From the IMG/VR virus record IMGVR_UViG_3300043640_000137, positions 24,525 to 88,524 of that record: a DNA stretch of 64,000 bases, one strand, 5' to 3'. The stretch comes from a virus. Shown piece by piece: positions 36,913-60,833 of this stretch; position 1 is the first letter of the stretch; each line of letters starts with the position of its first letter. The notes below the pieces were generated by a model. The model was not told the DNA's origin and ran no database searches. It saw only the letters and a program-made list of their open reading frames with translations. Made by a program: the position numbers and the translations under genes.

Positions 36913-36956
36913 TTTCTATGCTAGTTTCCCCGACTGGTCAAGCTATTTTAAGTAGC
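36913..36956 (-). promoter_or_regulatory. Early promoter P3 with dyad
   Basis: Minus strand -35 TTGACC (36941-36936), 17-base spacer, -10 TAGAAA (36918-36913). Upstream GCTAT TTTAA GTAGC (36942-36956), one mismatch from the perfect dyad. Drives the SSB-polymerase operon. Confidence 0.7.
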
Positions 36957-36965
36957 TTGGAAGGG

Positions 36966-39820: not shown

Positions 39821-39849
39821 ACGTTATGGCTACTTTCCGTAGCTGTCAA
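39821..39849 (-). promoter_or_regulatory. Early promoter P4 with perfect dyad in the spacer
   Basis: -35 TTGACA (39849-39844), 17-base spacer, -10 TAACGT (39826-39821). The dyad GCTAC TTTCC GTAGC (39829-39843) is perfect and fills the spacer, so a bound repressor would block RNA polymerase directly. Confidence 0.8.
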
Positions 39850-46150: not shown

Positions 46151-46185
46151 ACCTTAACAGCTACATTCCGTAGCTGTCAAGCTAC
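46151..46185 (-). promoter_or_regulatory. Early promoter P6 with perfect dyad
   Basis: -35 TTGACA (46180-46175), 18-base spacer, -10 TAAGGT (46156-46151). GCTAC ATTCC GTAGC (46160-46174) is perfect and within the spacer. A further half site GCTAC at 46181-46185. Confidence 0.8.
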
Positions 46186-48053: not shown

Positions 48054-48733
48054 GCTGCCTTCTTCCCTTCCCAGAATTGGGTACTATGTCCTTCCCACCG
48101 CCGGTCCCATACGAACCAGGAGAAGTTGTGCCGCGGCCCGGCGTCGGGCCTATTCGGGTCAAGACCAGCTTTCACCCGTCGCTGCCGCTTCTGATCTTCG
48201 GTCAGCCACCAGTCCCATCGCGGCCGGCTGGTCAGCACGATCTCGAAAGCGAACGGCACCTTCTTGAATGGGCCGAAGGGCTGACGATCGAAGTAGCTCC
48301 GGCGCTTGCCGGCGTGATTGACCTCACCGCGAAGCAGCGCAGCGACTGTCTGCACCTTCGGCATCGACAGGGCGTGCTCGATGAACTCGTCTTGCAGATT
48401 GTACGGAGGGTTCATGACAATCGCTTCGACGCCTGGATCGAGCAGTTCGTCGTTCAAGAAGTCGCGAGCGCCAGCCGCGCGCACTGGATAGAGCGTTTCG
48501 TCGAAGTCGCTCATGTCGAGGTCGCAGGCGATGATGTCGCTGTAGGCGATGCCGTCGTCTTCCACGAGCACGTCGATGATGTCGCCACGGCCGCATGCCG
48601 GTTCGAGGATCAGCATGCCGGGCAGGTTGAGGCGGCGCATCAATGCGCGGGTCATCCAGTGCTCGGTGTAATACTTCTCGCCTTCGTTGCGCTCGAAGGC
48701 ACTCTGCACCATCGCCTTGTCGCGCGTGATCAT
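48050..48733 (-). CDS. DNA adenine methyltransferase-like protein
   Basis: 227 residues. SAM-binding EPACGRGD (44-51) and catalytic NPPY (108-111) in the gamma/alpha order. C-terminal part (FSWFVWDRRWEGHS) is typical of phage methylases. Second methyltransferase of the phage, different class from the one at 31200. Confidence 0.85.
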   Translation of the reverse strand: MITRDKAMVQSAFERNEGEKYYTEHWMTRALMRRLNLPGMLILEPACGRGDIIDVLVEDDGIAYSDIIACDLDMSDFDETLYPVRAAGARDFLNDELLDPGVEAIVMNPPYNLQDEFIEHALSMPKVQTVAALLRGEVNHAGKRRSYFDRQPFGPFKKVPFAFEIVLTSRPRWDWWLTEDQKRQRRVKAGLDPNRPDAGPRHNFSWFVWDRRWEGHSTQFWEGKKAA

Positions 48734-49188
48734 TCGTCGTCTCCGTCACCGAAGGCGGCGTTGGTCGTCCCCATTTCGTGGAGCGGGACAGTGCGCGTTA
48801 CGTATCCAGGGCCTCGGTTGCCGCTCGGGCCACGCTTCACGCCTGCCGGCGGCGCTGGACGTGGCTGAGGCGCAGCGACGGGCTGTGCTGGTGCAGCGGG
48901 CGTCGTCACGGGATCGGTGGAACCTTGCTGCACGGCAGGACGGCCCTCATCCGCTGCGATGGCTGCTGTATCGGCGATCAGGTTGAGCATCTTCGCGAAG
49001 CGCGCCGGCTCAGATATCAGCGCGCCTACCATCGCCTCGTGCTCAGCCGTGGCGTTTTCAGGCATACCGGCGACCGCAGTCAGAAGCTCGACGCGGACCT
49101 CGTGCTTAACGGCATCGGCTTGCGACGCGAAGTCGCTCGTCGAACCGTCTGGGTTTTTCACCCGATAAACCTGGACAGCCTCGACCAT
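48730..49188 (-). CDS. Hypothetical protein with VQQGSTD linker
   Basis: 152 residues. A helical N-terminal domain (about 1-80), then the 24-bp repeat read as AVQQGSTDP, then a Pro/Ala-rich linker and a Gly-rich end. The repeat lies between domains. Unknown function. Confidence 0.55.
   Translation of the reverse strand: MVEAVQVYRVKNPDGSTSDFASQADAVKHEVRVELLTAVAGMPENATAEHEAMVGALISEPARFAKMLNLIADTAAIAADEGRPAVQQGSTDPVTTPAAPAQPVAAPQPRPAPPAGVKRGPSGNRGPGYVTRTVPLHEMGTTNAAFGDGDDE
48911..48934 (-). repeat. 24-bp dispersed repeat, copy 1
   Basis: Plus-strand GGATCGGTGGAACC then TTGCTGCACG. The most isolated copy, 5.5 kb from the others. In frame as VQQGSTD. Confidence 0.9.
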
Positions 49189-49190
49189 GA

Positions 49191-49547
49191 TCAGTTCAGC
49201 CGTGATCCTGGCACCGGGACCGCGAGTGCGAAGTCGTCGATTGGATCAGGCTGCGCGGATTGATCGACGGTGCTCAGCACAGCGATCCCGTGATCGATGT
49301 AGGCGCAGTCGAGGCCCGTCGAGCCGTCGCCGAAGGTCTTCAGCGGATCGAGGCCGAATGGTGCGACGATGGCGGGCCACAGCGCCCGCGTGGCTTCGCG
49401 AAGCAGTGCCTGCCGAGCCGCGACAAGCTGCTGGTGCTTCATGTCGAGCAGTTCCATGTCTTCCTTGAACTCATGCACGAGACCGTGGAACGCCTTGGCG
49501 GCGTCGAGCGCCATGCCAGTCAAAAGAAACGTCTTTGGATTACCCAC
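49191..49547 (-). CDS. Hypothetical protein, GTG start
   Basis: 118 residues from GTG at 49547 (GGGAG upstream, overlap with previous stop). Helical coiled-coil-like middle (AFHGLVHEFKEDMELLDMKH). Unknown function. Confidence 0.55.
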   Translation of the reverse strand: MGNPKTFLLTGMALDAAKAFHGLVHEFKEDMELLDMKHQQLVAARQALLREATRALWPAIVAPFGLDPLKTFGDGSTGLDCAYIDHGIAVLSTVDQSAQPDPIDDFALAVPVPGSRLN

Positions 49548-49749
49548 GATCGTTCTCCCTCTTCTCAGTCTGCAAGACGCTATCGACGATCTGCTCGGCC
49601 TGCTCCCGCGACATCTCAGGGTGCGCAAGCATGATCTCACCCACCGCCCACGACCGACGTGTCTCGTCCGTGTTGCCGCCCTTGGAGATCGCGTTGAGCC
49701 GGCGCTGGGCCATCCCGAGTTGCGAGAAGGTGAGTCGCGTCTGCGTCAT
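49540..49749 (-). CDS. Hypothetical helical protein
   Basis: 69 residues (MLAHPEMSREQAEQIVDSVL helix). Unknown function. Confidence 0.55.
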   Translation of the reverse strand: MTQTRLTFSQLGMAQRRLNAISKGGNTDETRRSWAVGEIMLAHPEMSREQAEQIVDSVLQTEKRENDRG

Positions 49750-49994
49750 TTGTCGGACCTCGGGATCGGTGGGATGTCGAGCAGTGATGCAGCAATCGTC
49801 TTCCGGCTGGACCGGCGCTTCGGAAGGGAAGGGCTGCCGTGGTTATCGTCGCCGCGGTAATCGAGTGCGCGCTCGCGTTGCTCGGGCGTTAGCGTCGCCA
49901 GGAAACCAGTCTTCTCGGCGAGCACCTGCGGCTTGCGCTTCTCTCGCTCGATGGCGAGGTTGATGATCTCAGCGCTCCGCGTGCCGGCGATCAT
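49746..49994 (-). CDS. Hypothetical basic protein
   Basis: 82 residues; AIEREKRKPQVLAEKTGFLA and a 'TPEQRERALDYRG' segment. Unknown function. Confidence 0.5.
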   Translation of the reverse strand: MIAGTRSAEIINLAIEREKRKPQVLAEKTGFLATLTPEQRERALDYRGDDNHGSPSLPKRRSSRKTIAASLLDIPPIPRSDK

Positions 49995-49997
49995 CTG

Positions 49998-50246
49998 CTA
50001 CCCCTTGACGGCCATGCCGCCGATTGGCTCGCGGCGTGCGGGCTGCGACGGCTGTTGCGGGGAAAGCTCTTCGTCTGGGACCAGCATGTCCATGACGACC
50101 AGGACGTGTGGCGTGCCGACGCCGGCACCGCCCATGACAACGAACGGCTCGCATGTGTGCAGACGCCAGTTCGCCTTGCCGTGCTCTTTCAGCAGGGCTT
50201 GAAGCTCTTCTGGCGATGTGAGGAAGGTGAGATAGTCGTAAGCCAT
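49998..50246 (-). CDS. Hypothetical protein, leaderless start
   Basis: 82 residues from ATG at 50246. MAYDYLTFLTSPEELQALLK is helical; a beta sheet and proline-rich tail follow. The predicted transcript starts at or next to the A of ATG. Confidence 0.6.
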   Translation of the reverse strand: MAYDYLTFLTSPEELQALLKEHGKANWRLHTCEPFVVMGGAGVGTPHVLVVMDMLVPDEELSPQQPSQPARREPIGGMAVKG

Positions 50247-50253
50247 ACCAGGG

Positions 50254-50297
50254 AACTTATAGAGCCATTCCCCGGCTGTCAAGCTACTTTATATAGC
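50254..50297 (-). promoter_or_regulatory. Early promoter P7 with dyad
   Basis: -35 TTGACA (50282-50277), 17-base spacer, -10 TAAGTT (50259-50254). Upstream GCTAC TTTAT ATAGC (50283-50297), one mismatch. Confidence 0.75.
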
Positions 50298-50523
50298 TGT
50301 CGAGGGTCTTCCCAATAAGGTTGAGCCCCGCACGGGTATCAGCCGCACGAGGCTCGAATTAGAAGGCACCCTGCTTCTTGCTATCATAAAAGCTATTGCC
50401 CTCTCTGAAACTGCGCATTGTCACTTATGCTATCAAAACAGATTTTGCGCAGCTTCAGAGAAGGCGGGAGCGCAGAGACACTTGCTATCAGGCGTGCAGT
50501 TGCTCCCGGTTCTCCTACGCCTT
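50298..50523. other. Intergenic region with inverted repeat and TGATAGCA sites
   Basis: About 226 bp without a convincing gene. CTCTGAAACTGCGCA (50403-50417) pairs with 50446-50460 with one mismatch, around a 28-base AT-rich loop. Three TGATAGCA octamers (minus strand) at 50379-50386, 50428-50435 and 50483-50490. Could be an origin, operator or terminator region. Confidence 0.6.
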
Positions 50524-51132
50524 TCAGCGTATATCTTTCGCCTGCTTGATGATCTTCTCGACCGCCTTTGCGGTGAACTCCTGCGAGACGCGGCTCTCGG
50601 AGTCCGGCAGGCCCGCGCACAGTTGCTCGGCGATAAAGCTGTGCTCGCGGCCTCGACGGCCCCACGCCTTCAGCTTCTCTTGCGTCATGTCGCCGATGTA
50701 GCAGTCGAAGTCCGCGATCTTGTAATCGACGAACCATGCGAGCGCCGTCGTAGCGCCCTGCGTGTGCGCCACTGCTGCCGCTGCCTTAGCACCGCGCGTA
50801 GCTGCTGCCGTCGATTGGCCGCGGGCCTTGCCACGACGAGGGCCTGACTGCCGGGGTGTCTGCGCCGGGTTCAACTCCGTCTCGCGGGCGTCCATCTTCC
50901 TACCGGCCATGCGGGTGATCACGCCCAGGAAGTCGTCGTCGATCTTCAGCGCTTGCGGGCACTGGTCGATGATGGCGACCGCAAGGTTTGCTGGCGACCG
51001 GCTGTTTTCAAGTTCCTGATCGACGAGGTTACGGAGCATCGACTCCGCGTTCTCACGCGCTTTCTGCGCCGTCGATTTCTCCGCACGATGGGCGCGCTCG
51101 ACAGCGCCCGCATTCTCTATACTGGTCTGCAT
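50524..51132 (-). CDS. Hypothetical protein
   Basis: 202 residues; helical N-terminus, a central Ala/Arg/Thr-rich basic stretch (GPRRGKARGQSTAAATRGAK) and an acidic-aromatic segment (WFVDYKIADFDCYIGD). Possibly DNA-binding. Unknown family. Confidence 0.55.
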   Translation of the reverse strand: MQTSIENAGAVERAHRAEKSTAQKARENAESMLRNLVDQELENSRSPANLAVAIIDQCPQALKIDDDFLGVITRMAGRKMDARETELNPAQTPRQSGPRRGKARGQSTAAATRGAKAAAAVAHTQGATTALAWFVDYKIADFDCYIGDMTQEKLKAWGRRGREHSFIAEQLCAGLPDSESRVSQEFTAKAVEKIIKQAKDIR

Positions 51133-51162
51133 AACTTAGCCTCTCGTTGCTTTACACACTGG

Positions 51163-51879
51163 TTAAAAAAAAAAAGTGGAAGGCGCGGAATCTGTTGCTA
51201 TCAGCGTAATCTTGAAGTAGAGCACAGCGAGCTTGTTGCCCGGTCGCATCGCGGCGCCCTCACCATCGTCAGCCCGCGCGTAGCTGTTCTTCGGTGCGAG
51301 GCCGATGTAGCGGCGCAGTCCTTGCGGCGTGGTCTTCTCGACCGTGCCGTCTTCGAGTTCGAACTGCCGCGGATCACCGAGCAACCCGAGGATACATCCG
51401 TACCCGTAGAGGCTGACGCCCTTGGTAGCGTCGATCCAGCCGTCGCCCGCCCATCCAGCGCAATCGCCACCGGGGAGCTTTGCGACGATCTTCTCCATGG
51501 CGCGACGCGACTTCTTCTCGGCCGCGATCAGTCCGTCGATCGCCGGCTGTGACGCGCGCATCATCTCCGCCGTAGCTTCGTCCATCTCTTCGCCGCCGGG
51601 GAGTCCCATCGGCTCACCTTTTTCGTATCGAGCGAGCGATTCCTCGACCTGTTTGAGCTTCGTCTTGCGCTCGTCGTCCGGCAGGAACGCGTTGTAGCCG
51701 ATCTGGAACGCAACGAAGGATTCGTTCTGATTGATGAGGCGCATCCGCGCAACTTCCGCGCGCTTGTTAAGCCGATACCAGCGCTGAAGGTCTTCGAGTT
51801 GCGCCGTGAACGGCAGCCCCTCGATCGCCGCGGGCTCGGGCTTCACAACTTCCAACTTCGGCTTGCGCTTGGTGGGCAC
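51163..51879 (-). CDS. Conserved phage protein, possible DNA-binding (IS110 C-term-like)
   Basis: 238 residues from GTG at 51879 (GGAG six bases upstream). GVSLYGYGCILGLLGDPRQF and GLRRYIGLAPKN resemble the helix-hairpin-helix end of IS110-type transposases, but no catalytic domain is seen. The gene ends in a run of eleven T giving STFFF. An IS origin is not claimed. Confidence 0.45.
   Translation of the reverse strand: MPTKRKPKLEVVKPEPAAIEGLPFTAQLEDLQRWYRLNKRAEVARMRLINQNESFVAFQIGYNAFLPDDERKTKLKQVEESLARYEKGEPMGLPGGEEMDEATAEMMRASQPAIDGLIAAEKKSRRAMEKIVAKLPGGDCAGWAGDGWIDATKGVSLYGYGCILGLLGDPRQFELEDGTVEKTTPQGLRRYIGLAPKNSYARADDGEGAAMRPGNKLAVLYFKITLIATDSAPSTFFF
51196..51203 (-). promoter_or_regulatory. 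TGATAGCA octamer
   Basis: Copy of the octamer seen three times at 50379-50490, here inside the gene at 51163. Confidence 0.4.
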
Positions 51880-51921
51880 TTGGCTCTCCGTTTCAAAAAA
51901 GATCGAACGCAGTCTACAAAT

Positions 51922-51929
51922 TGCTATCA
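51922..51929 (-). promoter_or_regulatory. TGATAGCA octamer in P8 leader
   Basis: Same octamer, in the untranslated leader between promoter P8 and the GTG at 51879. Confidence 0.45.
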
Positions 51930-51955
51930 CATGACATATTGCGTTCTTGAAAGAG

Positions 51956-51999
51956 AGCTTATGAAATATTTCCGTCCCTGTCAAGCTACTTTATGTAGC
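51956..51999 (-). promoter_or_regulatory. Early promoter P8 with perfect dyad
   Basis: -35 TTGACA (51984-51979), 17-base spacer, -10 TAAGCT (51961-51956). GCTAC TTTAT GTAGC at 51985-51999 is perfect and directly upstream of -35. Confidence 0.8.
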
Positions 52000-52217
52000 T
52001 AAAATCCTATTCTCGAATGTGCCATCCGCAGCGCGCGATACTGGTCTTCGCGCCACGTCCAGTGTGCAATCGAGACGACGGCCTCGATCTCGAGTCCTCG
52101 TAGCGTCTGTTCATCGTACGCGAACACGGCGCGCGGAGCTTTGTCAGCGTGGTCCCGACACCAATCGTCAAACTGCCGACGCGTGCCGGCGATGACCGCG
52201 ATCTTCGCCGTGCTCAT
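51999..52217 (-). CDS. Hypothetical phage protein
   Basis: 72 residues. KIAVIAGTRRQFDDWCRDHA, RGLEIEAVVSIAHW: a Rossmann-like small domain that recurs in phages (beta strand, glycine loop). Unknown function. Confidence 0.6.
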   Translation of the reverse strand: MSTAKIAVIAGTRRQFDDWCRDHADKAPRAVFAYDEQTLRGLEIEAVVSIAHWTWREDQYRALRMAHSRIGF

Positions 52218-52453
52218 CCGAGCTTGATCCTATCAGCTATGCGGTTGAGCCCGAAACGGTATAGGCGACGGCGCGCCCTGAACATGATCTTCCACCACGC
52301 CCACCGCAGCGGAGGCAGCAGATCGGGCTCTTGTGGCTTGGGATCGGGCCGCGCGCGGCGCTGGTAGCACGACTCCATGTACCCGCATTCGCATCTTTCA
52401 GCGAAGCGACGGCACTTAGGACAGAAGGTAAGCGGGACCGCGATCTTGCTCAT
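52214..52453 (-). CDS. Small zinc-binding protein
   Basis: 79 residues: FCPKCRRFAERCECG gives four Cys for a zinc knuckle; basic C-terminus. Unknown function. Confidence 0.58.
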   Translation of the reverse strand: MSKIAVPLTFCPKCRRFAERCECGYMESCYQRRARPDPKPQEPDLLPPLRWAWWKIMFRARRRLYRFGLNRIADRIKLG

Positions 52454-52620
52454 AGGCTGCGGAGCCTCTTAATGAAGGACTCGGCACCCGTGTTATACAT
52501 TTTCGAGAACAACCGGCGCTTCCACAGATTGCGCACGTCCATAGTCCATTCGTCATCGGGGATCGCGTGACCAAGCTCTTTCTCGGCCTGGGCGCGGATG
52601 TAGTCTAGTGGATCGCTCAT
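52450..52620 (-). CDS. Hypothetical protein
   Basis: 56 residues from ATG at 52620, overlapping the upstream stop. Helical (YIRAQAEKELGHAIPDDEWT). Unknown function. Confidence 0.55.
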   Translation of the reverse strand: MSDPLDYIRAQAEKELGHAIPDDEWTMDVRNLWKRRLFSKMYNTGAESFIKRLRSL

Positions 52621-52817
52621 GCGGAAGCGCCGGTCCAACGGTCATGGATTTGGATTAGCGAAACGATCACGCGATTGTCGTAGGTGTCACGGCATTCCAT
52701 GTCCTGTAACGACCCGTCTTGCTGATAGATGCGATACCATATGCGCCCGTCTCGACCTTTGATCTTCGAGAAGTCGTAAGGATCGCAGCGTTCGTATTCG
52801 TCAATCTTCTTCGTCAT
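52617..52817 (-). CDS. Hypothetical protein
   Basis: 66 residues from ATG at 52817. Beta-rich (RIWYRIYQQDGSLQDMECRD). Unknown function. Confidence 0.55.
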   Translation of the reverse strand: MTKKIDEYERCDPYDFSKIKGRDGRIWYRIYQQDGSLQDMECRDTYDNRVIVSLIQIHDRWTGASA

Positions 52818-52918
52818 CGCCCGCCTCGTAAGCAATGCAGTCGCAGCTTTCACATGCCGTCGATCCGGGATACTTCGTGGCCGTGTTCTTCTTCACTGTG
52901 TCCGCATTCGCAAGCCAT
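52801..52918 (-). pseudogene. Small zinc-binding gene split by an apparent +1 frameshift
   Basis: From ATG at 52918: MACECGHSEEEHGHE in one frame; about base 52875 another frame continues KYPGSTACESCDCIAYEAGD to a stop at 52801. The halves make one plausible four-Cys protein, so one extra base near GGCCACGAAG breaks it, or frameshifting is programmed. Confidence 0.5.
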
Positions 52919-52928
52919 GATCTATCCC

Positions 52929-53099
52929 TTAGTCGAAGCTCGGGTAGCCGGCGTCGATCACGGCGTACTCGATACGGTTGGCGACCACTTCGAGCGCGTC
53001 GCCGATAGTCACGATATCCTCACTGTCTTCCTTTGATTCTCGGGCGACGTCCCTGAGTATGTCGCGCACGATCTTCAGCGCGTCGTATGCGTCCATCAT
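52929..53099 (-). CDS. Hypothetical acidic helical protein
   Basis: 56 residues from ATG at 53099. DAYDALKIVRDILRDVARES helix. Unknown function. Confidence 0.55.
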   Translation of the reverse strand: MMDAYDALKIVRDILRDVARESKEDSEDIVTIGDALEVVANRIEYAVIDAGYPSFD

Positions 53100-53248
53100 G
53101 ATTCGTCTTCCACCTTCTTGACCCATGTATCGGAATCGGGCTCGTAGACGTACCCTTCCCGCTTCAGCCTTTCGATGGTGTCGCGCTCCCGATGAGCGGC
53201 GTGTGCCATCTGCCGAAGATAGTCGGAGAGCTTCGCGGTGAACGTCAT
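53096..53248 (-). CDS. Hypothetical helical protein
   Basis: 50 residues (MTFTAKLSDYLRQMAHAAHR...), ATGA overlap with the next gene. Unknown function. Confidence 0.55.
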   Translation of the reverse strand: MTFTAKLSDYLRQMAHAAHRERDTIERLKREGYVYEPDSDTWVKKVEDES

Positions 53249-53295
53249 GCTTCGGCTTCCGTGGCCTCTTCTAGGACGTTCGCGGGCATAAGCAT
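53245..53295 (-). CDS. 16-residue mini-ORF
   Basis: MLMPANVLEEATEAEA; its stop overlaps the next ATG and its start follows the previous stop by two bases. It may only serve translational coupling. Confidence 0.25.
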   Translation of the reverse strand: MLMPANVLEEATEAEA

Positions 53296-53297
53296 CG

Positions 53298-53600
53298 TCA
53301 CGTCAGCGACTCCAATTCCTTGATGCGCTTCTCCAAGCGCTCCATGTACTCGGCCGCTTGGCGCAAGCCCGGCGGGTTGCCGCCGTGAACTCGAAGCGCC
53401 TGCTTGACTGTCTCGACATGCGCCGGATCGACCTTGAATGACTCCGCGGGCACGCTACCGGCCACAATCCGAAGCCCGCGCTTTTCGAGATGATGCCGGA
53501 CGTTGAGTGCCGTCACCCGGCCTTCACCGTCGCACACAGCGTCGGACAGCGCCTCGTTGATGTCGTCGTCCATGACCGCGATTGCGTCTTCGTTAGCCAT
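53298..53600 (-). CDS. Hypothetical protein
   Basis: 100 residues from ATG at 53600. Acidic N-terminus; a middle with RVTALNVRHHLEKRGLRIVA; C-terminal coiled coil (AAEYMERLEKRIKELESLT). Unknown function. Confidence 0.55.
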   Translation of the reverse strand: MANEDAIAVMDDDINEALSDAVCDGEGRVTALNVRHHLEKRGLRIVAGSVPAESFKVDPAHVETVKQALRVHGGNPPGLRQAAEYMERLEKRIKELESLT

Positions 53601-53608
53601 CTTAACTC

Positions 53609-53791
53609 CTACCGATAAAGTTGAATGTGCGTGGTCTGCAAACCCGCAACGCCGTGGCCGAGACGCGTGAGCCATGTCTGGAACTCCTCGATCGACAACG
53701 AGTGCGCTTCACACGCCGCCTCGATCGAGATCGCACCATCCTGAACTGACTTAACCAGTTCCGCTTTCCGCCGTGCCGTCCACCGCTTTTG
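53609..53791 (-). CDS. SciP-like transcription regulator (DUF1153)
   Basis: 60 residues from ATG at 53791. RW..RRKAELVKSVQDG, then S-x-E-x-AC, SIEEFQTWL and GLQTTHIQLYR follow the DUF1153 pattern of Caulobacter SciP residue by residue (RW, RRKAE, EAC, EEF, GL, QxYR). In Caulobacter, SciP binds CtrA and stops it activating transcription. The phage form has only the helix-turn-helix core, lacking the usual N-terminal arm. It is first in the operon and starts within a few bases of the predicted transcription start, so a role early in infection or in lysogeny is likely. Confidence 0.88.
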   Translation of the reverse strand, partial: QKRWTARRKAELVKSVQDGAISIEAACEAHSLSIEEFQTWLTRLGHGVAGLQTTHIQLYR

Positions 53792-53801
53792 CATGATGTA
53801 A

Positions 53802-53845
53802 CCTATGAACGAACTTTCCGTGACTGTCAAGCTACTTTATGTAGC
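53802..53845 (-). promoter_or_regulatory. Early promoter P9 with perfect dyad
   Basis: -35 TTGACA (53830-53825); -10 is CATAGG or TAGGTT (17- or 19-base spacer), the weakest -10 of the set. GCTAC TTTAT GTAGC at 53831-53845 is perfect. Confidence 0.7.
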
Positions 53846-53849
53846 TGTT

Positions 53850-54152
53850 TTATTGTTTTCCCCAAGACCTGACGATAGCCATGACCGCTTCTCTCGCCTC
53901 TGGGCATCCATCCCTGCACGCCCTCGTCATGACGTAGATCATGGCCGCGCTATCGTTCGGGAAGACGCGGCTCGCCCCATGGAACTCAGCGTCAGCATCA
54001 TCCTCACGCGGAGCGATATCACGGTTCGCGTGAAGTTCGAGGATCGGCTCTTTCTCCGTGCCGATGTTCACGACATCCCAATGCACGCGGTACGGATCGT
54101 GAGACGGCACCGGACGCCGGCTGAGATGAAGCGGTGACTGCCTGATCTTCAT
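53850..54152 (-). CDS. Hypothetical protein
   Basis: 100 residues; beta strands (PILELHANRDIAPREDD) and a helical C-terminus (REAVMAIVRSWGKQ). Unknown function. Confidence 0.55.
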   Translation of the reverse strand: MKIRQSPLHLSRRPVPSHDPYRVHWDVVNIGTEKEPILELHANRDIAPREDDADAEFHGASRVFPNDSAAMIYVMTRACRDGCPEAREAVMAIVRSWGKQ

Positions 54153-54340
54153 CGGTGCTTACTCACGTTGCTGGGATCGAAGTTCATCTGGTAGCCGGCG
54201 ACGTATGGCGTCACGCCGATCCAATCTGGATACACGGAGCCGCCACAGCCCGACACCGGCCCGACGGCGGTGATCCTGCCGACTCCATAGCCGGGCACGC
54301 GCACTTGCTCACCGAGGATGATTTCGTCAAAGGCAATCAC
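54149..54340 (-). CDS. Hypothetical protein
   Basis: 63 residues; beta-barrel-like (VRVPGYGVGRITAVGPVSGC). ATGA overlaps on both sides. Unknown function. Confidence 0.55.
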   Translation of the reverse strand: MIAFDEIILGEQVRVPGYGVGRITAVGPVSGCGGSVYPDWIGVTPYVAGYQMNFDPSNVSKHR

Positions 54341-54420
54341 TTCAAGCCTCCATAAAGTAGGATCGCGGTCGTCAAGCCGCCGATGAGAATTATAATCGCC
54401 GCGAGATGGTAGTACCTCAT
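54337..54420 (-). CDS. 27-residue membrane peptide
   Basis: MRYYHLAAIIILIGGLTTAI and a short tail: single membrane helix. An upstream in-frame extension through the 24-bp repeat (VRQGSTES) is open but has no ATG. Confidence 0.5.
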   Translation of the reverse strand: MRYYHLAAIIILIGGLTTAILLYGGLK

Positions 54421-54451
54421 TTTTGCGCTCTCGCTCCTGGGCATTCGTTGC

Positions 54452-54973
54452 TCATTCGCCTGGCCGGATTCGGTGGAACCTTGCCGCACGGTGCCTCGCT
54501 GCTTGTCGAAGCCAAGTCGCAAACCGTTCTGCGTCTACCACCAGCGGCGACTTCTCAGCGAGCCACACGGCTAGCAGGTCCATGTAGCTGTTGCCCTTAC
54601 CCAGGTGCGATACTGCGTGCGCAAGGACTCGGCGCTCGATGTCGGCGAAGTCCGCGTCGATGATTACGATACGCGGCTGTTCCCGGCCGGCTCGGTGGAA
54701 GCGGCTCTGCGATTGGATGATGTCGAGGGTTATCGCGTCGAGGGCTTGCTTCTGGTGCGGAAGCAGACGGCCGGTAGGGCTCTGCCCGGAATCGGTGGAA
54801 CCTTGCTGCACGGCGAGATTGGATTCGGTGGAACCTTTCTGCACGCCGCCTAGCAAAGCGGCATAGAGATCGCGCACCAGCATCTCAGTGATCAGCGGCA
54901 GCCGCGCCCTCTCTTCCGCGTCGAGCAGGCACCACGCATTGGCCCGCCCCAATAGCTGCTTCATGTCAGCCAT
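54452..54973 (-). CDS. Hypothetical protein with two in-frame 24-bp repeats
   Basis: 173 residues from ATG at 54973. N-terminal helix, then GGVQKGSTESNLAVQQGSTD (two repeat copies), then a domain with PRIVIIDADFADIERRVLAH and a conserved-looking ending. The DADF segment could bind metal. A third repeat lies at the 3' end, read in another frame (HRAARFHRI). Confidence 0.55.
   Translation of the reverse strand: MADMKQLLGRANAWCLLDAEERARLPLITEMLVRDLYAALLGGVQKGSTESNLAVQQGSTDSGQSPTGRLLPHQKQALDAITLDIIQSQSRFHRAGREQPRIVIIDADFADIERRVLAHAVSHLGKGNSYMDLLAVWLAEKSPLVVDAERFATWLRQAARHRAARFHRIRPGE
54467..54490 (-). repeat. 24-bp dispersed repeat, copy 2
   Basis: GATTCGGTGGAACC then TTGCCGCACG (one change). 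At the 3' end of the gene at 54452 and upstream of the peptide gene at 54337. Confidence 0.9.
54789..54845 (-). repeat. 24-bp dispersed repeat, copies 3 and 4
   Basis: Copy 3 at 54789-54812 (GAATC variant) and copy 4 at 54822-54845 (TTTCTGCACG variant), nine bases apart, both in frame as VQQGSTD and VQKGSTES. Confidence 0.9.
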
Positions 54974-55397
54974 AGACGATATCCTTCAGAGCGACGCATT
55001 GCAGAAACACATCGGCCGTGGTCGCGTCTTCGTTGTCGTTGAGGAAATCGCCGAAGTGCTGGCCGTACTTCTCCGCCATGAGCTTCAGCCCGACCTTGAA
55101 ATCCGCTTGCGTGATGCGTCGGCTTTGCGGCTCGCCCTCTTCGTTGTACTCGCCGACTTCGATCTCGAAGAGGCTGCCATCGCCGAACAGCGCCGGGCAG
55201 TCATACCAGTTGTCTGACTCGGAGTCAGCCTCCGCCGCTGCAACAGCCTCCCGCCCCGATAAAACTTCGGAGAAGTGGTTGCCGGGCTCCCATCGAAGCA
55301 ACAGCACGCTTCTGCACCAGTAGTTGCTTCCGCCTTCGATTGCCGTGACCATAAGGTCTGCAATGCGTCGCGGCGCGATCTCGATCTCAATTTTCAT
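54966..55397 (-). CDS. Hypothetical protein
   Basis: 143 residues from ATG at 55397 (ATGA overlap). Beta-rich N-terminus (MKIEIEIAPRRIADLMVTAI), acidic middle with repeated E. Unknown; conserved-looking. Confidence 0.6.
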   Translation of the reverse strand: MKIEIEIAPRRIADLMVTAIEGGSNYWCRSVLLLRWEPGNHFSEVLSGREAVAAAEADSESDNWYDCPALFGDGSLFEIEVGEYNEEGEPQSRRITQADFKVGLKLMAEKYGQHFGDFLNDNEDATTADVFLQCVALKDIVYG

Positions 55398-55849
55398 TTG
55401 CTGCTCCAACTGTTCATCCCTTCGGGCGCGTCGATGCCATACCCGCCACGCTCCACTTTATCCTTGTCGGGAAGCTGGGCGATATACGCCTCGGCTTCGG
55501 CAATGGTGCCAAAGCGCTTTAGCACCGTGAACCCTTCGCTCTCTTCGTCAACCACGAACACGGGTTTAAGCGTCATTTGCTGCTCCCATTTATCGAGCCA
55601 ACCTTTTTGGTCCGCTTCCCTAAGCACGTACTCCACCATGTAGGCGAGGTATCCTGCGTCGTTCTCTTGCCCGAGCTTGGCGTTGATGCGCTCCATGCTC
55701 GGCTTAATGATCTCGGACACGCAGCGAGCATTAAACCGGCGGAGTGGCGTAGGGTGATCGGCCTTGCGGCATTCCTTAAAAATCGCGACCGCTTTGTCGA
55801 TCTCATCCTGGGTCAGGAAGTCGTCCAACGTCACTTGCTTGTCTGCCAT
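55394..55849 (-). CDS. Hypothetical protein
   Basis: 151 residues from ATG at 55849 (GGGAGAG upstream). Helical first half (DEIDKAVAIFKECRKADHPT), beta second half. Unknown function. Confidence 0.6.
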   Translation of the reverse strand: MADKQVTLDDFLTQDEIDKAVAIFKECRKADHPTPLRRFNARCVSEIIKPSMERINAKLGQENDAGYLAYMVEYVLREADQKGWLDKWEQQMTLKPVFVVDEESEGFTVLKRFGTIAEAEAYIAQLPDKDKVERGGYGIDAPEGMNSWSSK

Positions 55850-55883
55850 ACTTTCTCTCCCAATGAAACTCTCTAGCCAGCTA

Positions 55884-56060
55884 CTATACGCCCTGGCCGG
55901 AATCGGTGGAACCTTGCTGCACGCGAGCGACAAACGCGTCCAGCCCTCTTCGCTTCTTGCGCGCGGCGGCGCTGTGCCTCGCCTGCGTGCGCTTTTTTAT
56001 CTTAGCTTCATGCGCCGCTAAGTGCGCGGCTACGGCCCTCTCCTGCTCTTGATCTTGCAC
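55884..56060 (-). CDS. Small basic protein ending in VQQGSTDS
   Basis: 58 residues, GTG start overlapping the upstream stop. Lys/Arg-rich helix, then VARVQQGSTDSGQGV at the C-terminus, encoded by repeat copy 5. Confidence 0.6.
   Translation of the reverse strand: MQDQEQERAVAAHLAAHEAKIKKRTQARHSAAARKKRRGLDAFVARVQQGSTDSGQGV
55900..55923 (-). repeat. 24-bp dispersed repeat, copy 5
   Basis: GAATC variant of GATTC. Read in frame at the C-terminus of the gene at 55884. Confidence 0.9.
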
Positions 56061-56257
56061 TAGAAAAGCTCCGCTAACTCTTGCTTCAACTTCGCGTCGT
56101 CGTCCTGCACGGGCTCCGCCTTGCGCTTACGCTCGCGATCCTCGGCGTCGATGGCTTTGCAGAACGCGATCCAGTTCGCTTCGGCACGCTGAAAGCACAA
56201 CACGTCATCGGGATTATGCCGCGAACTCGGCGCATAGAACTCAGTGGGCTTAGCCAC
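56060..56257 (-). CDS. Hypothetical protein
   Basis: 65 residues from GTG at 56257 (GGAG nine bases upstream). Helical (RAEANWIAFCKAIDAEDRER). Unknown function. Confidence 0.55.
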   Translation of the reverse strand: MAKPTEFYAPSSRHNPDDVLCFQRAEANWIAFCKAIDAEDRERKRKAEPVQDDDAKLKQELAELF

Positions 56258-56504
56258 GGGCCGGCTCCGATTCGGTGGAACCTTGCTGCACGGCGGCGCC
56301 GTGATCATGCTCGATGCCGTAGGGCGCAAGGCACACTTGAAGGAAGCCATTCGTCTGCCGGCTGACGTTCGCGCACACCTTGCCGAGCACTGGCGCCAGC
56401 GCCTCGCGGCATGCGGCCTCAAAGCAATCGTCACACATTCCGACTTCCTGGGTCTGGCATGTGACGTGCTGCTCGCCGCAGACTTCGCAATAGGGTAGGT
56501 CCAT
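56250..56504 (-). CDS. Zinc-binding protein ending in VQQGSTES
   Basis: 84 residues from ATG at 56504. CEVCGEQHVTC and MCDDCFEAAC fit a zinc site; the C-terminus GAAVQQGSTESEPARG comes from repeat copy 6. Confidence 0.62.
   Translation of the reverse strand: MDLPYCEVCGEQHVTCQTQEVGMCDDCFEAACREALAPVLGKVCANVSRQTNGFLQVCLAPYGIEHDHGAAVQQGSTESEPARG
56269..56292 (-). repeat. 24-bp dispersed repeat, copy 6
   Basis: Consensus copy, in frame at a C-terminus, just before the next gene. Confidence 0.9.
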
Positions 56505-56896
56505 CACACAGACTCCTTTGCAACCGTCTCCGATTCGGTGGAACCTTGCTGCACGGTGTCCTTCGGAAGCAAAGGAAGGTCGATAAAGCCGGGCCGCGCG
56601 TCAGGCGCTTTGAATAGCTCCCAATCTCCGGCCGCGAGGCGGAAGGCGCTGACGGAGCCGTGAGCGAGGTCAAGCTCTATCAGCGTGCGCCGTATCAGCC
56701 CGTAGCCCGGCATCTTGTCTGCCGATATCCCAAGGCGGACGAAGCCCTGAGACTCAAGCTGCGATGGATCGTAGCTCTTCGGGCCAGAGTAAAGCGTCGT
56801 GTGGCCTTGCTCGCGGGCGCGCTCGAACATCGCGTCCATCTTGGCGTTGCGGCGCTGGGCGCCGGTCATTGTCCGCCAGCCTGGGAACTTAGACAT
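56504..56896 (-). CDS. Hypothetical protein ending in VQQGSTES tail
   Basis: 130 residues. RNAKMDAMFERAREQGHTTL and ESQGFVRLGIS; C-terminus TVQQGSTESETVAKESV from repeat copy 7. Unknown function. Confidence 0.6.
   Translation of the reverse strand: MSKFPGWRTMTGAQRRNAKMDAMFERAREQGHTTLYSGPKSYDPSQLESQGFVRLGISADKMPGYGLIRRTLIELDLAHGSVSAFRLAAGDWELFKAPDARPGFIDLPLLPKDTVQQGSTESETVAKESV
56532..56555 (-). repeat. 24-bp dispersed repeat, copy 7
   Basis: Consensus copy at the 3' end of the gene at 56504. Confidence 0.9.
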
Positions 56897-56945
56897 TGAC
56901 CGTCTCCGATTCGGTGGAACCTTGCTGCACGGCGGATACGCTCAT
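56889..56945 (-). CDS. Mini-ORF made of the repeat (VQQGSTES)
   Basis: 18 residues, MSVSAVQQGSTESETVNV. Its ATG overlaps the stop of the gene at 56942 and its stop overlaps the start of the next gene, so it bridges them. It is almost only the repeat. Confidence 0.4.
   Translation of the reverse strand: MSVSAVQQGSTESETVNV
56908..56931 (-). repeat. 24-bp dispersed repeat, copy 8
   Basis: Consensus copy between two genes, inside the mini-ORF. Confidence 0.9.
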
Positions 56946-57274
56946 ATCGAACGCTCCTTCTGTTTGGCCAGCCAATCGAACCACGCCAACGCGCTCTGGA
57001 CGGTTCTGTAGCGACCGCCGTTGCAGTGGCAGGCTTGCGGCTCCCAACCGGCGAAGTCATAGTTGCCCTCGGTCGCTGTCCGGTAGCGCACAGATAAGCG
57101 CCTCTCCCAACAAACCATATCCTCGGGTATCCACTCTTCGCGCTCTTGCCCGTCAGAAGTGATAACCGCAAGGCTGGCGTTTAAGTACCTGACCGCCTCG
57201 AACCCCGCGCGCTGCATCGCTTCAAGATGCGAGGGCGGGAGCACCGGGACGGCCGTCGCTTTGCGTTTGCTCAT
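56942..57274 (-). CDS. Hypothetical protein
   Basis: 110 residues; MSKRKATAVPVLPPSHLEAM start, beta middle with CHCNGGRYRTVQSALAWFD at the end. Unknown function. Confidence 0.6.
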   Translation of the reverse strand: MSKRKATAVPVLPPSHLEAMQRAGFEAVRYLNASLAVITSDGQEREEWIPEDMVCWERRLSVRYRTATEGNYDFAGWEPQACHCNGGRYRTVQSALAWFDWLAKQKERSI

Positions 57275-57277
57275 GGC

Positions 57278-57610
57278 TCAGCCCTCGATCTTGGCAAGGA
57301 TGGTGCGCAGGATCGCGCGGTCGGGATCACTTGGATGCTCAATCTGCGGAACGCATCGCCGCACCCAGGCCGCAAGCTCGCGCAGCGTCGCCGCGTCGAG
57401 CGTGACATTGCCGCGTGGATCACGCGTGAAGATATCGTGGCCGATGCGGATGTTCCCGCTATCGCGCACGGAGTAAACCAAGTCGTGGTATCGGGCGTCC
57501 CGCTTGTCGCGCTCTTTGCGCGCCGCAGCAAGATCGTCGGTTGTGAACCGAGTGCGCGTCCATTCTGACGCCGCGATGTGCCGATGGCAGAGAACGTATT
57601 GACCGCTCAT
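57278..57610 (-). CDS. Hypothetical protein sharing a domain with the gene at 59149
   Basis: 110 residues. GHDIFTRDPRGNVTLDAATL repeats nearly word for word at 59149 (DIFTRDPRGNVTLD). N-terminal CHRH; C-terminal helix. Unknown function. Confidence 0.6.
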   Translation of the reverse strand: MSGQYVLCHRHIAASEWTRTRFTTDDLAAARKERDKRDARYHDLVYSVRDSGNIRIGHDIFTRDPRGNVTLDAATLRELAAWVRRCVPQIEHPSDPDRAILRTILAKIEG

Positions 57611-57912
57611 TTGTCGCTCCCATTCGCCTTCGGCTCGGGCTTCGCGGATTCGGTGGAACCTTGCTGCACGTCTTCGTCTTCATCGCTTTCGGGATGGTGG
57701 ACGAAGACCCAGGCCGAGACCCAAACGCCTTCCTCGGTGTAGCTGTAGAGCGGCGCGTCATCGATCTCTAAGTCGTCATTGACGGCGACTTGCTCGGCGT
57801 ACTCGGGATACTTGTCACCGTAGGTTGCGAGGATCGTGAGAACCTCAGCTTGCGTCAGGCCCGAGCCCAACGCTTCGCGCACCATGCTTTTCAAGCGGTC
57901 ATTGTCAGCCAT
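57607..57912 (-). CDS. Hypothetical protein ending in VQQGSTES tail
   Basis: 101 residues from ATG at 57912 (AGGAGTCGA upstream). Helical; C-terminus DVQQGSTESAKPEPKANG from copy 9. The frame is open upstream through copy 10 with a possible GTG start. Confidence 0.58.
   Translation of the reverse strand: MADNDRLKSMVREALGSGLTQAEVLTILATYGDKYPEYAEQVAVNDDLEIDDAPLYSYTEEGVWVSAWVFVHHPESDEDEDVQQGSTESAKPEPKANGSDK
57647..57670 (-). repeat. 24-bp dispersed repeat, copy 9
   Basis: Consensus copy near the C-terminus of the gene at 57607. Confidence 0.9.
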
Positions 57913-57925
57913 TCGATCGACTCCT

Positions 57926-57949
57926 GATTCGGTGGAACCTTGCTGCACG
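57926..57949 (-). repeat. 24-bp dispersed repeat, copy 10
   Basis: Consensus copy between genes, followed at once by AGGAGTCGA and the ATG at 57912; in the same frame as the downstream gene. Confidence 0.9.
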
Positions 57950-57950
57950 C

Positions 57951-58382
57951 TCAGCGATACCAATATTGCACGCCGTCGAAATCGACTTGCTGATAGTCCA
58001 TCTTCAATTCGTCCGCCGCGCGGTCCCAATCGATGTAGGACAGCGGCCATTGCGCGTCGCGGCCGATGGCGCCGATGTCTTCGGCATGCTCTTGGGCATA
58101 GTCTTGGAAGGATGAGTCCCGGATGAGCGTGACCGGATACCAAGCGCCGTTCCATTCGTGATCGCCGCCATTGCCGCGAAGCTCATCCAGAAGCGCGGTC
58201 AGATTGGCGCGCTCTTGCGCCTCGTCAGTCAGGTCAACGCCTTCGACGCCGGACACTTCGCCTTCGCCGCCGATTGACGATTGCGCCGAAAGGTCTTCAA
58301 GCTCCGTTCCGATTTCCTCGACGCGTGCAATCACGTCGCGCACGTCGATATAGCCTTCGGAATTACTAATGCTATCAGCCAT
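57951..58382 (-). CDS. Conserved phage/plasmid-type hypothetical protein
   Basis: 143 residues from ATG at 58382. The segment WNGAWYPVTLIRDSSFQDYA, WPLSYIDWDRAADELK and VDFDGVQYWYR is a pattern I have seen in phage and plasmid proteins of unknown function. N-terminal coiled coil. Acidic. Confidence 0.62.
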   Translation of the reverse strand: MADSISNSEGYIDVRDVIARVEEIGTELEDLSAQSSIGGEGEVSGVEGVDLTDEAQERANLTALLDELRGNGGDHEWNGAWYPVTLIRDSSFQDYAQEHAEDIGAIGRDAQWPLSYIDWDRAADELKMDYQQVDFDGVQYWYR

Positions 58383-58693
58383 CACACGCTCCCGGATTCG
58401 GTGGAACCTTGTTGCACGGCGTTCTCGCTCCGCGCGTCCTTCAGAACCTTTATGCTCTCTCGCAGCCATTGCCAGCCGGCCGTCATGCTGCCCTTGCACT
58501 CGGGTTCGAAGAGCACGATTGCGAGCGCGAGAAGCTCTTCCATGTCCGTCGCCGCGCCAATCAGGTTGGCGTTCGCAACCGCCTGTCCCGGCAACAGGTG
58601 CGAGCGGTCGGTGTCCGTAACCAGCACGCCGTTTGCATCTCGAATGACGGTGACTTGAACGGTCCAAGGACCGGGTGAATGTTTAACGGGCAT
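58382..58693 (-). CDS. Conserved phage protein ending in VQQGSTES
   Basis: 103 residues from ATG with AGGAGTCGA upstream. KHSPGPWTVQVTVIRDANGV and ANANLIGAATDMEELLALAI follow a common phage hypothetical family ('HTPGPW'). C-terminus NAVQQGSTESGSV from copy 11. Confidence 0.65.
   Translation of the reverse strand: MPVKHSPGPWTVQVTVIRDANGVLVTDTDRSHLLPGQAVANANLIGAATDMEELLALAIVLFEPECKGSMTAGWQWLRESIKVLKDARSENAVQQGSTESGSV
58395..58418 (-). repeat. 24-bp dispersed repeat, copy 11
   Basis: TTGTTGCACG variant; the change is synonymous (CAG to CAA) in the VQQGSTES frame. Confidence 0.9.
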
Positions 58694-58961
58694 CGTTCGA
58701 CTCCTTGCACTCGGCTTCGTTATCGGTGTCGCGCGATATGCGGTCGCGCGGTACGCCTAGCTCGTCTGCCATCTCTGCCGCCGATTGCTGCGCCCATTTT
58801 TCCAAGGTCGCCGCTGGCACGGGCCGGTCATTCACGGCGACCGATTGAGAGTCGAGCGGATGGTCGCCGGCCGTGTATTCTTTGACGGGCTGGCCGTCGC
58901 GCCCGTATGCCGTGACCGCGTAGCCGTGGCCGGTCAGGTACCATTGAACGAAGGGCTTCAT
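58683..58961 (-). CDS. Hypothetical protein
   Basis: 92 residues from ATG at 58961. MKPFVQWYLTGHGYAVTAYG start, acidic helical end. Unknown function. Confidence 0.55.
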   Translation of the reverse strand: MKPFVQWYLTGHGYAVTAYGRDGQPVKEYTAGDHPLDSQSVAVNDRPVPAATLEKWAQQSAAEMADELGVPRDRISRDTDNEAECKESNDAR

Positions 58962-59152
58962 TGCCAATCCCCGTATCCCGCGCAATCGGGCTGCGGCTCT
59001 TCGCTGTCTTCCGCTTCCATCGCGTCAAGCCAGCCGTGAATCCACGCGTAGCTGTTCTCCGCTTTCGAGGAAGATTCGGACGCGTACCGGCCATCGACTC
59101 CGGCCATGCACGCTTGCCAGCCCGCGACATACGCTTGCGCTTCGGTTGTCAT
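58958..59152 (-). CDS. Hypothetical protein
   Basis: 64 residues from ATG at 59152. Ala/Glu-rich with CMAGVDGRYASE; acidic end. Unknown function. Confidence 0.55.
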   Translation of the reverse strand: MTTEAQAYVAGWQACMAGVDGRYASESSSKAENSYAWIHGWLDAMEAEDSEEPQPDCAGYGDWQ

Positions 59153-59850
59153 GACCGCGCCCATCGTTGCTTAACCACAAGGTCACAATCGGAATAGATA
59201 TCGGTAAGCTCCGCGAGCAAGGCTGCGCATTCATCCGGCGTTGCGTTGCGCGTCTCATTAAACCAAGAGCGCGAGCATTCCGAGTGCTGGCCGATGTGCG
59301 CGTAGCACACGGCCATTCCGGGGTTGGCGCTCAGCGTAGGGAACACGGCGCTAACGTCGCCCTTGAACTTACCGGCGCACTCCACACGGAATAGAACCGG
59401 AAGCTTCTCTTTGCCTGACGCGGCCTTGCGCGGTTGAGTCGTTCTGTCGCTGACGATGGCGCCAGTCCTGCCAATCGTGACGCGCTGGTTAAAGCGATGC
59501 TTCCCTGCCGGCGTTATGAGCCGAAAGCCGCGAACGGACTCAACCCGGTATCCGGGGCGATGCTCTGTCAGCGCTTCATTCATCCGGCCGCGCGTCAACA
59601 TGCTATAGAAGCCGCCGCTGTCGAGCGTCACGTTGCCGCGTGGATCACGCGTGAAGATGTCGGTGGAGTGAAGGCGCACGCGGAGCGTTTCGTCGCTCAG
59701 CCTATATTCGATTGTGTTCCGCGCCACGATCCGCGACGTGATCACTTCGCAAGGCTTGCCGCTTGCCTGTATCTCGCTCGCGATCTCGGCGAGCATGCCC
59801 TTCTTACTCTTGCGCGCGATGGCTTGCGCGGAATACTGACCGTAACCCAT
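59149..59850 (-). CDS. Hypothetical protein, shares domain with gene at 57278
   Basis: 233 residues from ATG at 59850. Contains the shared DIFTRDPRGNVTLD segment (near residue 65), a basic middle and a C-terminal domain with CYAHIGQHSECSRSWF. First gene after promoter P10. Unknown function. Confidence 0.6.
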   Translation of the reverse strand: MGYGQYSAQAIARKSKKGMLAEIASEIQASGKPCEVITSRIVARNTIEYRLSDETLRVRLHSTDIFTRDPRGNVTLDSGGFYSMLTRGRMNEALTEHRPGYRVESVRGFRLITPAGKHRFNQRVTIGRTGAIVSDRTTQPRKAASGKEKLPVLFRVECAGKFKGDVSAVFPTLSANPGMAVCYAHIGQHSECSRSWFNETRNATPDECAALLAELTDIYSDCDLVVKQRWARS

Positions 59851-60009: not shown

Positions 60010-60038
60010 ACAGTAGAGCTACTTTCCGTGGCTGTCAA
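60010..60038 (-). promoter_or_regulatory. Early promoter P10 with dyad in the spacer
   Basis: -35 TTGACA (60038-60033), 17-base spacer, -10 TACTGT (60015-60010). GCTAC TTTCC GTGGC (60018-60032), one mismatch. Drives the small-gene operon 59850 leftward. Confidence 0.75.
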
Positions 60039-60099
60039 AAAGAAAATGTAGCTCGGCGAATATATTCGTCGTTAATTTCTTAACCTATATCCGGCCATG

Positions 60100-60129: not shown

Positions 60130-60138
60130 CTCTGCCGG

Positions 60139-60170: not shown

Positions 60171-60192
60171 CTATCACTTATCTAGGCATAGA

Positions 60193-60546: not shown

Positions 60547-60833
60547 GACGATAGACCTCTCTTTGCTGATTCGGTGGAACCGTGCTGCACGTCAAATAAA
60601 TCCCAAGCTTGATCGACGCGTTCCAAGATTCGGTGGAACCTCGCTGCACGCCGGCCCGATTCGGTGGAACCACGCTGCACGGCGCCACCGTCCGCGCTCG
60701 CGCTCGATCTCTCGCTTTTGAGATAATTCCGCTCGATCGGTAAGGTTAACGATCCATTAAGGTTAACGCGCATTAAGGTTAACGATCCATTAAGGTTAAC
60801 GCGCATTAAGGTTAACGCCCGGCCAGCTTTCAT
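60543..60833 (-). CDS. Doubtful ORF over iterons and three 24-bp repeats
   Basis: 96 codons starting directly at the upstream stop (TAAATG). The N-terminus is a translation of the iteron array (LTLMRVNLNGS twice) and the C-terminus of two repeat copies. It may be a control region rather than a protein gene. Confidence 0.25.
   Translation of the reverse strand: MKAGRALTLMRVNLNGSLTLMRVNLNGSLTLPIERNYLKSERSSASADGGAVQRGSTESGRRAARFHRILERVDQAWDLFDVQHGSTESAKRGLSS
60568..60591 (-). repeat. 24-bp dispersed repeat, copy 12
   Basis: GATTCGGTGGAACC, GT, GCTGCACG. In frame as VQHGSTES. Confidence 0.9.
60627..60681 (-). repeat. 24-bp dispersed repeats, copies 13 and 14
   Basis: 60627-60650 (middle bases TC) and 60658-60681 (middle bases AC), seven bases apart. 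Together with copies 1-12 they show that the two bases after GGAACC vary while both flanks are fixed. Confidence 0.9.
60741..60817. repeat. Five iteron-like direct repeats TAAGGTTAACG
   Basis: Copies start at 60741, 60758, 60774, 60791 and 60807, spaced 17, 16, 17, 16 bases. Spacers alternate between ATCCAT-like and CGCAT-like. GTTAAC inside each is itself palindromic. Fits an origin or a multi-site operator. Confidence 0.85.

Follow-up and report, generated by a model that had tools for sequence, protein, structure and literature searches.

A tailed phage encodes a short protein of the SciP (DUF1153) family that lacks the N-terminal arm of cellular SciP, and its genome holds arrays of CtrA boxes far above chance. 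Of all bacterial cell-cycle circuits, the one made up of CtrA, GcrA, CcrM, DnaA, and SciP has been studied best. The explanation we favor, with a probability of roughly 0.55, is that the arm-less SciP modulates CtrA-dependent promoters of the phage, of its host, or of both, which suggests that the phage tampers with host cell-cycle control of gene activity. This reading builds on the DUF1153 match, the loss of the arm, and the excess of CtrA boxes in this phage, in Erythrobacter phage XM05, and in Brevundimonas phage vB_BsubS-Delta (Delta), whose boxes bind CtrA in vitro. The window is the whole stretch of 64,000 nucleotides analyzed here, part of an IMG/VR virus record of 88,524 bases; positions are those of the window unless stated otherwise.

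The SciP-like gene and the phage that carries it

The leftward SciP-like ORF (Table 1) has its stop end at 53609 and its best start at the ATG at 53794, and encodes MQKRWTARRKAELV...IQLYR. The sole in-frame start further upstream is a TTG at 53830, which is the TTG of a TTGACA hexamer. The sequence-only reading had delimited the feature as 53609-53845; the gene end stands, but the upper limit takes in a dyad that precedes the gene. The motifs RRKAELV, EAC, EEF, GL, and QLYR, which it had listed in the order of the DUF1153 family, were all found in that order, and the family core (RW.ARRKAE[VLI]V ... EAC ... [LI]S..E[FL]..W ... HG..GL..T..Q.YR) is present. The protein matched Pfam PF06627 (DUF1153) with 63.7 bits against a cut-off of 23.5 (E 1.8e-17) over profile positions 27-87 of 87, the sole DUF1153 match of the record. 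Its PDB relatives by sequence were 2jrt (1.6e-8) and 2oa4 (1.2e-6), named merely 'uncharacterized protein' and 'SiR5'. An AlphaFold2 model (52 aligned rows, mean pLDDT 76) contained 3 helices (residues 7-19, 24-30, and 35-46) and a poorly predicted C-terminal tail. Foldseek with this model gave no match at E <= 0.001; the top PDB match was again 2jrt (probability 1.00, TM 0.68 by query, E 0.057), and many of the remaining top matches were HTH DNA-binding domains. The predicted product is a minimal SciP, with a tri-helical HTH and the C-terminal GL-T-Q-YR tail and without the N-terminal arm. The earlier assignment as SciP-like is thus right as to family, but the protein is not a full SciP.

The DUF1153-type domain is kin to the HTHs of transposase OrfA proteins, and the gene might be a transposase relic, an IS3-type OrfA HTH that merely resembles SciP. 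HTH_Tnp_1 scored 23.7 bits on the protein, just under its cut-off of 24.1, and on Salmonella plasmid NZ_CP148803 an IS3 OrfA bears the name 'DUF1153 domain-containing protein' (L088:726-1034), so that the DUF1153 name alone does not identify a SciP. We regard a relic as very improbable, and disfavor it, because DUF1153 outscores HTH_Tnp_1 by 40 bits, the protein has all of the SciP tail GL..T..Q.YR, which the IS3 match, ending at residue 49 of 61, does not reach, the 5 neighboring ORFs scanned around the gene gave no Pfam family, transposase families included, and XM05 keeps the same short form. Of the plasmid records matched, 108 of 127 were from Salmonella. DUF1153 genes were also seen on plasmids of Novosphingobium (pP6W2, L089:4911-5210), Paracoccus, and Sphingomonas, and may be additional copies of SciP on these replicons.

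Terminase, portal, major head protein (capsid), scaffold, tape measure, and tail genes are all in the record, which identifies a genuine tailed phage of siphovirus type and bears out the earlier description of the gene as phage-borne. The large tail protein matched 124 phage records, most commonly from phages of Caulobacter (38), Rhodobacter (24), Brevundimonas (8), and Roseobacter (7). Comparison with Delta gave 52% for the capsid, 39% for the portal, 36% for the terminase, and 48% for the topoisomerase, and the tail genes have a match in XM05. Because the tail-protein matches are led by alphaproteobacterial phages, and the head and tail genes resemble those of Delta and XM05, respectively, the host is likely an alphaproteobacterium. 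No match to GcrA was found in the phage. GANTC sites numbered 260 versus 369 (second-order) or 291 (third-order) expected, which is no clear depletion, unlike in Delta, where depletion is strong (48 versus 165 expected). Two leftward ORFs resemble DNA methyltransferases (31203-32039, N6_N4_Mtase, 2e-26; and 48053-48733); the first was considered as a CcrM counterpart and dropped, as Pfam and BLAST identified only a common phage methylase. The leftward DNA polymerase I ORF (31976-35065, 1029 aa) contains an endonuclease-family stretch (residues 556-767) between its polymerase parts (10-538 and 813-1028), an insert that looks like an intein.

The N-terminal arm and the relatives of the phage protein

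The arm of cellular SciP reads roughly VIGPxGxPLTLxDLPPPxT in 74 distinct proteins from 80 cellular loci, with near-invariant columns (L 0.99, P 0.97, T 0.97, G 0.94). These 74 rows were retrieved with the pattern R[WY][TV]A.., so identity in the core is there partly due to selection; 50 of them, the window protein, and the viral protein L005 make up the 52 rows of alignment A2. DUF1153 was found in 60 of 60 genomes of an alphaproteobacterial order sample and in 72 of 190 genomes of a class sample, and 76 of the 77 matches in the latter begin at profile position 24 or before. The arm motif GP.G..LT...LPPP.T is absent from the window protein and from its relative in XM05 (PV416404; 151,973 bases; named host Erythrobacter sp. 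JL475), and both proteins begin at RW/RY. The XM05 protein, XM05_97 (64 aa, MRYTARIKAEIV..., annotated as hypothetical), is an arm-less DUF1153 protein with 46% identity to the window protein (alignment A1).

T24I and T65A of Caulobacter SciP are described as loss-of-function substitutions (PMC4241560, PMC7591256). A T-T pair with the T24-T65 spacing of 41 residues occurs at the same place in 26 of 30 cellular SciPs, one T in the LT...DLP of the arm and the other in the L-T-x-EE[FY] of the helix; it is numbered exactly T24/T65 in 4 cellular SciPs and is absent in 4 of the 30. By this spacing in cellular SciPs, not on the C. crescentus sequence, T24 would map to the arm missing from the phage proteins and T65 to a Ser that is kept (S34). 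Compared with the cellular SciP of Caulobacter and other Alphaproteobacteria, the window protein thus keeps the HTH core, the C-terminal tail, and S/T at the presumed T65 site, but it has lost the arm, is phage-encoded, and stands behind a dyad promoter. It also has a T instead of V after RW (T in 4 of 4 viral proteins versus 1 of 74 cellular ones, by column frequency), a His at position 31, common to both arm-less proteins, where cellular SciP has Tyr (0.97), and a one-residue deletion before HG. Because an arm nearly invariant in cellular SciPs, with the mapped site of T24I, is missing, one cannot take it that the phage protein simply blocks CtrA in the manner of SciP; it might just as well antagonize SciP.

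Relatives in viruses are few. Searching 50,697 phage records by tblastn with the window protein returned one relative, XM05; the L005 protein likewise found XM05 only, and the XM05 protein found itself and one weak partial match (E 0.6). In viral contigs, neither the window protein nor the XM05 protein found a relative, alignment A1 found 2 loci, L005 and L006 (the latter cut at a contig end), and the L005 protein found its own record only. L005 (IMGVR_UViG_3300036828_001020, 4935-5207) is a 90-aa SciP-like protein whose arm is partial and degenerate (LAGELPDPLQRWTARRKAAVV). Its record holds a single TTAA-N7-TTAA about 0.8 kb upstream of the gene and one control match too, and we make no CtrA-box claim for it.

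In a tree of 77 rows and 62 columns (L006 was left out for its length), XM05_97 sits on a long branch with a Sphingomonas SciP (97/79), close to its host's lineage; the window protein is unplaced. Its branch measures 1.55 versus a median of 0.15, both phage branches being about 10 times the median, and the function of the window protein may have drifted, given this very long branch. Three virus-label changes were counted, 2 of them forced by starred branches, although rows on branches of this length are placed with little certainty. As a reasonable guess, and not a result of the tree, the window phage and XM05 may have captured sciP separately and then lost the arm. The rarity of the gene in viruses (1 of 50,697 phage records and, over 4 completed protein scans, 2 viral-contig records) would suit a passenger, that is, a host gene fragment acquired by the phage without a selected role. 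This we consider improbable, since the ORF is intact and far from any host copy seen (the nearest has 53% over 58 columns), has clean gene boundaries and its own promoter, and shows the same arm loss in XM05, a phage of another host.

Dyad promoters and CtrA boxes

Table 1. Positions of the SciP-like gene, its transcription unit, the dyads, and the CtrA-box arrays.
Feature	Position	Strand	Remarks
Arm-less SciP-like (DUF1153) gene	53609..53794	-	61 aa; ORF and start choice, Pfam, AlphaFold2 model
Weak AGG, Shine-Dalgarno-like	53802..53804	-	10-8 nt before ATG
TTGACA, -35-like hexamer	53825..53830	-	36 nt before ATG
Perfect dyad AGCTAC-ATAAA-GTAGCT, putative operator	53830..53846	.	overlaps TTGACA
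Second gene of the unit	53298..53600	-	100 aa; AGGAG before ATG; no Pfam match at E <= 0.05
Further tightly packed small ORFs of the unit	51999..53248	-	ORFs and start candidates
Perfect dyad, putative promoter	51984..52000	.	next dyad after 53830..53846; closes the unit
Dyad, 1 mismatch, putative promoter	50282..50298	.	beside TTGACA
Perfect dyad	46159..46175	.	beside TTGACA
Dyad, 1 mismatch	60017..60033	.	beside TTGACA
Dyad, 1 mismatch	39828..39844	.	beside TTGACA
Dyad, 1 mismatch	36941..36957	.	beside TTGACC
CtrA-box array 1	5021-5864 (record positions)		outside window; between divergent genes, in a non-coding gap; 25 TTAA; 2 perfect boxes (5655, 5672)
CtrA-box array 2	60746..60815	.	9 TTAA; 2 perfect boxes (60746, 60779)

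The dyad in front of the SciP-like gene starts a few bases beyond the stop of the upstream gene (53850), and its last base begins the TTGACA hexamer. The -10 of the putative promoter is poor, though the distance from hexamer to ATG would be consistent with the earlier claim of almost no leader; if transcription begins beside the ATG, the weak AGG may lie outside the mRNA. The ATG of the second gene (53600), with its AGGAG, comes 8 nt past the sciP-like stop, and leftward ORFs are packed from there to the next dyad promoter at 51999, so that, by layout, the sciP-like gene is putatively first in an operon. Three of these ORFs (52617-52850, 52217-52453, and 52002-52217) gave no Pfam match.

Dyads of the form AGCTAC-N5-GTAGCT with at most 1 mismatch number 7 in the 88.5-kb phage versus 0.2 expected from 40 third-order Markov genomes, and 6 of the 7 touch a minus-strand TTGACA, either upstream of the hexamer or extending into the spacer. 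From these positions, we predict that the 7 sites belong to one promoter family of the phage, in which the dyad is an operator-like element; the dyad-controlled promoter that the sequence-only reading gave to the sciP-like gene is supported and appears general in this phage. The same dyads would fit a regulator private to the phage: a captured SciP that has lost every link to CtrA and whose HTH now recognizes phage sites such as these. A dyad stands at the gene's own promoter as well as at 6 other sites, its contact with TTGACA is that expected of an operator, and the recognition-helix residues and branch length of the protein are strongly divergent. We nevertheless judge this reading unlikely on balance, as XM05 has an arm-less SciP but not a single dyad of this form, even with 1 mismatch allowed, and nothing singles out the window protein among possible phage repressors as the one that acts at the dyad.

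For CtrA boxes, the check that the earlier reading had proposed, the phage contained 4 perfect TTAA-N7-TTAA versus 0.10 expected, with a maximum of 1 in 40 third-order Markov genomes, and no copy of the control AATT-N7-AATT. The motif TTAACCAT was found 12 times versus 1.15 expected in the third-order model, which we quote because the expectation depends on the model (0.5 in the second-order one). What marks LPEG-type phages, boxes above chance and clustered in gaps, is seen here in these counts and in the clusters of 25 and 9 TTAA (Table 1), the smaller of which lies some 7 kb upstream of the sciP-like gene, where it occupies a gap between 2 leftward genes. Array 1 is partly a 95-bp tandem repeat and the array elements are mostly half-sites or TTAACC repeats; because elements are partly tandem copies of this unit, the box counts are not independent. 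As a reference, 50 of 80 other viral loci with a G+C of at least 0.55 (819,849 bases) held 1 perfect box in total. With boxes so far above chance, the earlier suggestion that the phage might control its own promoters becomes concrete, with the CtrA circuit as the candidate means. Two observations count against the CtrA reading or its simple form: the promoter of the sciP-like gene itself has the dyad and no CtrA box, and none of 70 cellular sciP genes (those of 74 with 400 bp upstream) has a perfect box within 400 bp upstream, against the simple expectation that cellular sciP carries such boxes. TGTCGMG, which we take to be a SciP DNA motif, occurs 68 times in the phage versus 45 expected (second-order) and is not used as evidence.

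A 24-bp asymmetric repeat, GATTCGGTGGAACCTTGCTGCACG, is present in 14 copies at 48916-60663, dense from 54472. It is always in plus orientation, opposite to the genes, and sits at gene ends and in gaps, 3 of its copies separating CtrA-box array 2 from the following gene; where read, it gives proteins 'VQQGSTES' tails. It is reminiscent of the stoperators of mycobacteriophage L5.

XM05 shares with the window phage the arm-less DUF1153 protein and many CtrA boxes (7 perfect versus 0.17 expected; 38 TTAACCAT versus 1.95 expected). Of its 194 TTAA, 144 fall in one 20-kb block (77,934-97,909), 141 of these in intergenic DNA, and 30 of the 32 gaps of at least 60 bases in the block have 2 or more. 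The arrays lie upstream of a strikingly repeated promoter, GTGGAAAAAGTGCTTGACCGAATCGGTGGAG..., and the block carries about 30 near-identical promoters (TTGACCGAATCGGTGG ... CCTAGAAACGAATCA), which serve one small gene or unit apiece; GAATC sites lie inside these promoters. XM05_97 is in this block, second after XM05_98 and behind a promoter of the repeated type with 4 TTAA. In contrast to the window phage, XM05 therefore has its sciP-like gene amid some 30 TTAA/TTGACC promoters and without the AGCTAC dyad. CtrA arrays are thus present in both phages found with an arm-less SciP, 2 phages being a small sample.

Possible roles and comparison with known systems

In published work, SciP keeps CtrA-activated genes in check and binds both CtrA and DNA, and this binding protects it from Lon, of which it is a substrate (PMC7591256, PMC10662116, PMC4219702). 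We propose that the phage would infect an alphaproteobacterium with CtrA, that host CtrA would bind the TTAA arrays of the phage, and that the short SciP, made from the dyad-controlled promoter of the phage and free of host sciP control, would act on phage promoters that depend on CtrA and probably on such promoters of the host as well. Two forms of action divide the probability of this proposal. Tentatively, we give the larger share to an antagonist of host SciP, the core of which would occupy DNA or CtrA without repressing. By displacing the SciP of the host from CtrA promoters, it would release phage genes driven by CtrA in cells with high SciP. Close behind, and a little more doubtful, comes a minimal SciP-like co-repressor that would still repress, made on the schedule of the phage. 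We lean to antagonism because a residue required for repression by SciP maps to the missing arm, and because the infectable swarmer cells are those in which SciP should hold CtrA promoters down. Swarmer cells are infected by phage, as stated in the report on CtrA-regulated phages (PMC9437464). If the protein is indeed an anti-SciP, the SciP block on CtrA-activated promoters (those of the phage and of flagellar and pilus genes) would be lifted in G1 swarmer cells, and 'lytic deferment' would be ended on the phage's own schedule.

It is possible, if slightly less probable than antagonism itself, that the 2 phages, each infecting a different alphaproteobacterium, have matching equipment: CtrA-box arrays on their own promoters and an arm-less anti-SciP. 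The CtrA arrays of Delta, a phage without SciP, count against the CtrA reading as a whole. The idea is directly testable in XM05, whose host is named and which has about 30 near-identical promoters with TTAA arrays, one of them in front of its own sciP. A natural arm-less SciP is a ready tool for asking what the arm does.

CtrA-regulated 'LPEG' phages include Delta and phiCbK, and CtrA binding and regulation of phage sites are reported for Delta, phiCbK, and Cp1R7A-A1 only (PMC9437464). In published assays with the Delta boxes, CtrA binds in vitro and represses; that paper counts 12 boxes in the Delta gap (PMC9437464), and our one-strand count (the pattern is palindromic) gave 6 perfect boxes versus 0.12 expected. 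The window phage resembles Delta and other LPEG phages in the TTAA arrays in a gap between divergent genes, in a genome near 87 kb, and in homologous head and topoisomerase genes. Delta differs in having no SciP-like protein by tblastn and both of its TTAA clusters in one gap. The word SciP is absent from the phiCbK genome paper (PMC3556154), the paper on CtrA-regulated phages reportedly looked only for SciP binding sites (PMC9437464), and we found no report of a phage-borne SciP in the open-licence literature, judged largely by titles and abstract starts.

Other host-type regulators of different families are carried by phages to act on host or phage promoters: GcrA in phiCbK-like phages (PMC3556154), CcrM-like methylases (cited in PMC9437464), and the XRE factor TgrL of phiCbK (PMC10462132). 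Phage GcrA and CcrM and phage CtrA boxes were already known; new here is the host cell-cycle regulator SciP carried by a phage, and with it the inhibitor, the node so far missing from this set, is found alongside CtrA-box arrays in one phage.
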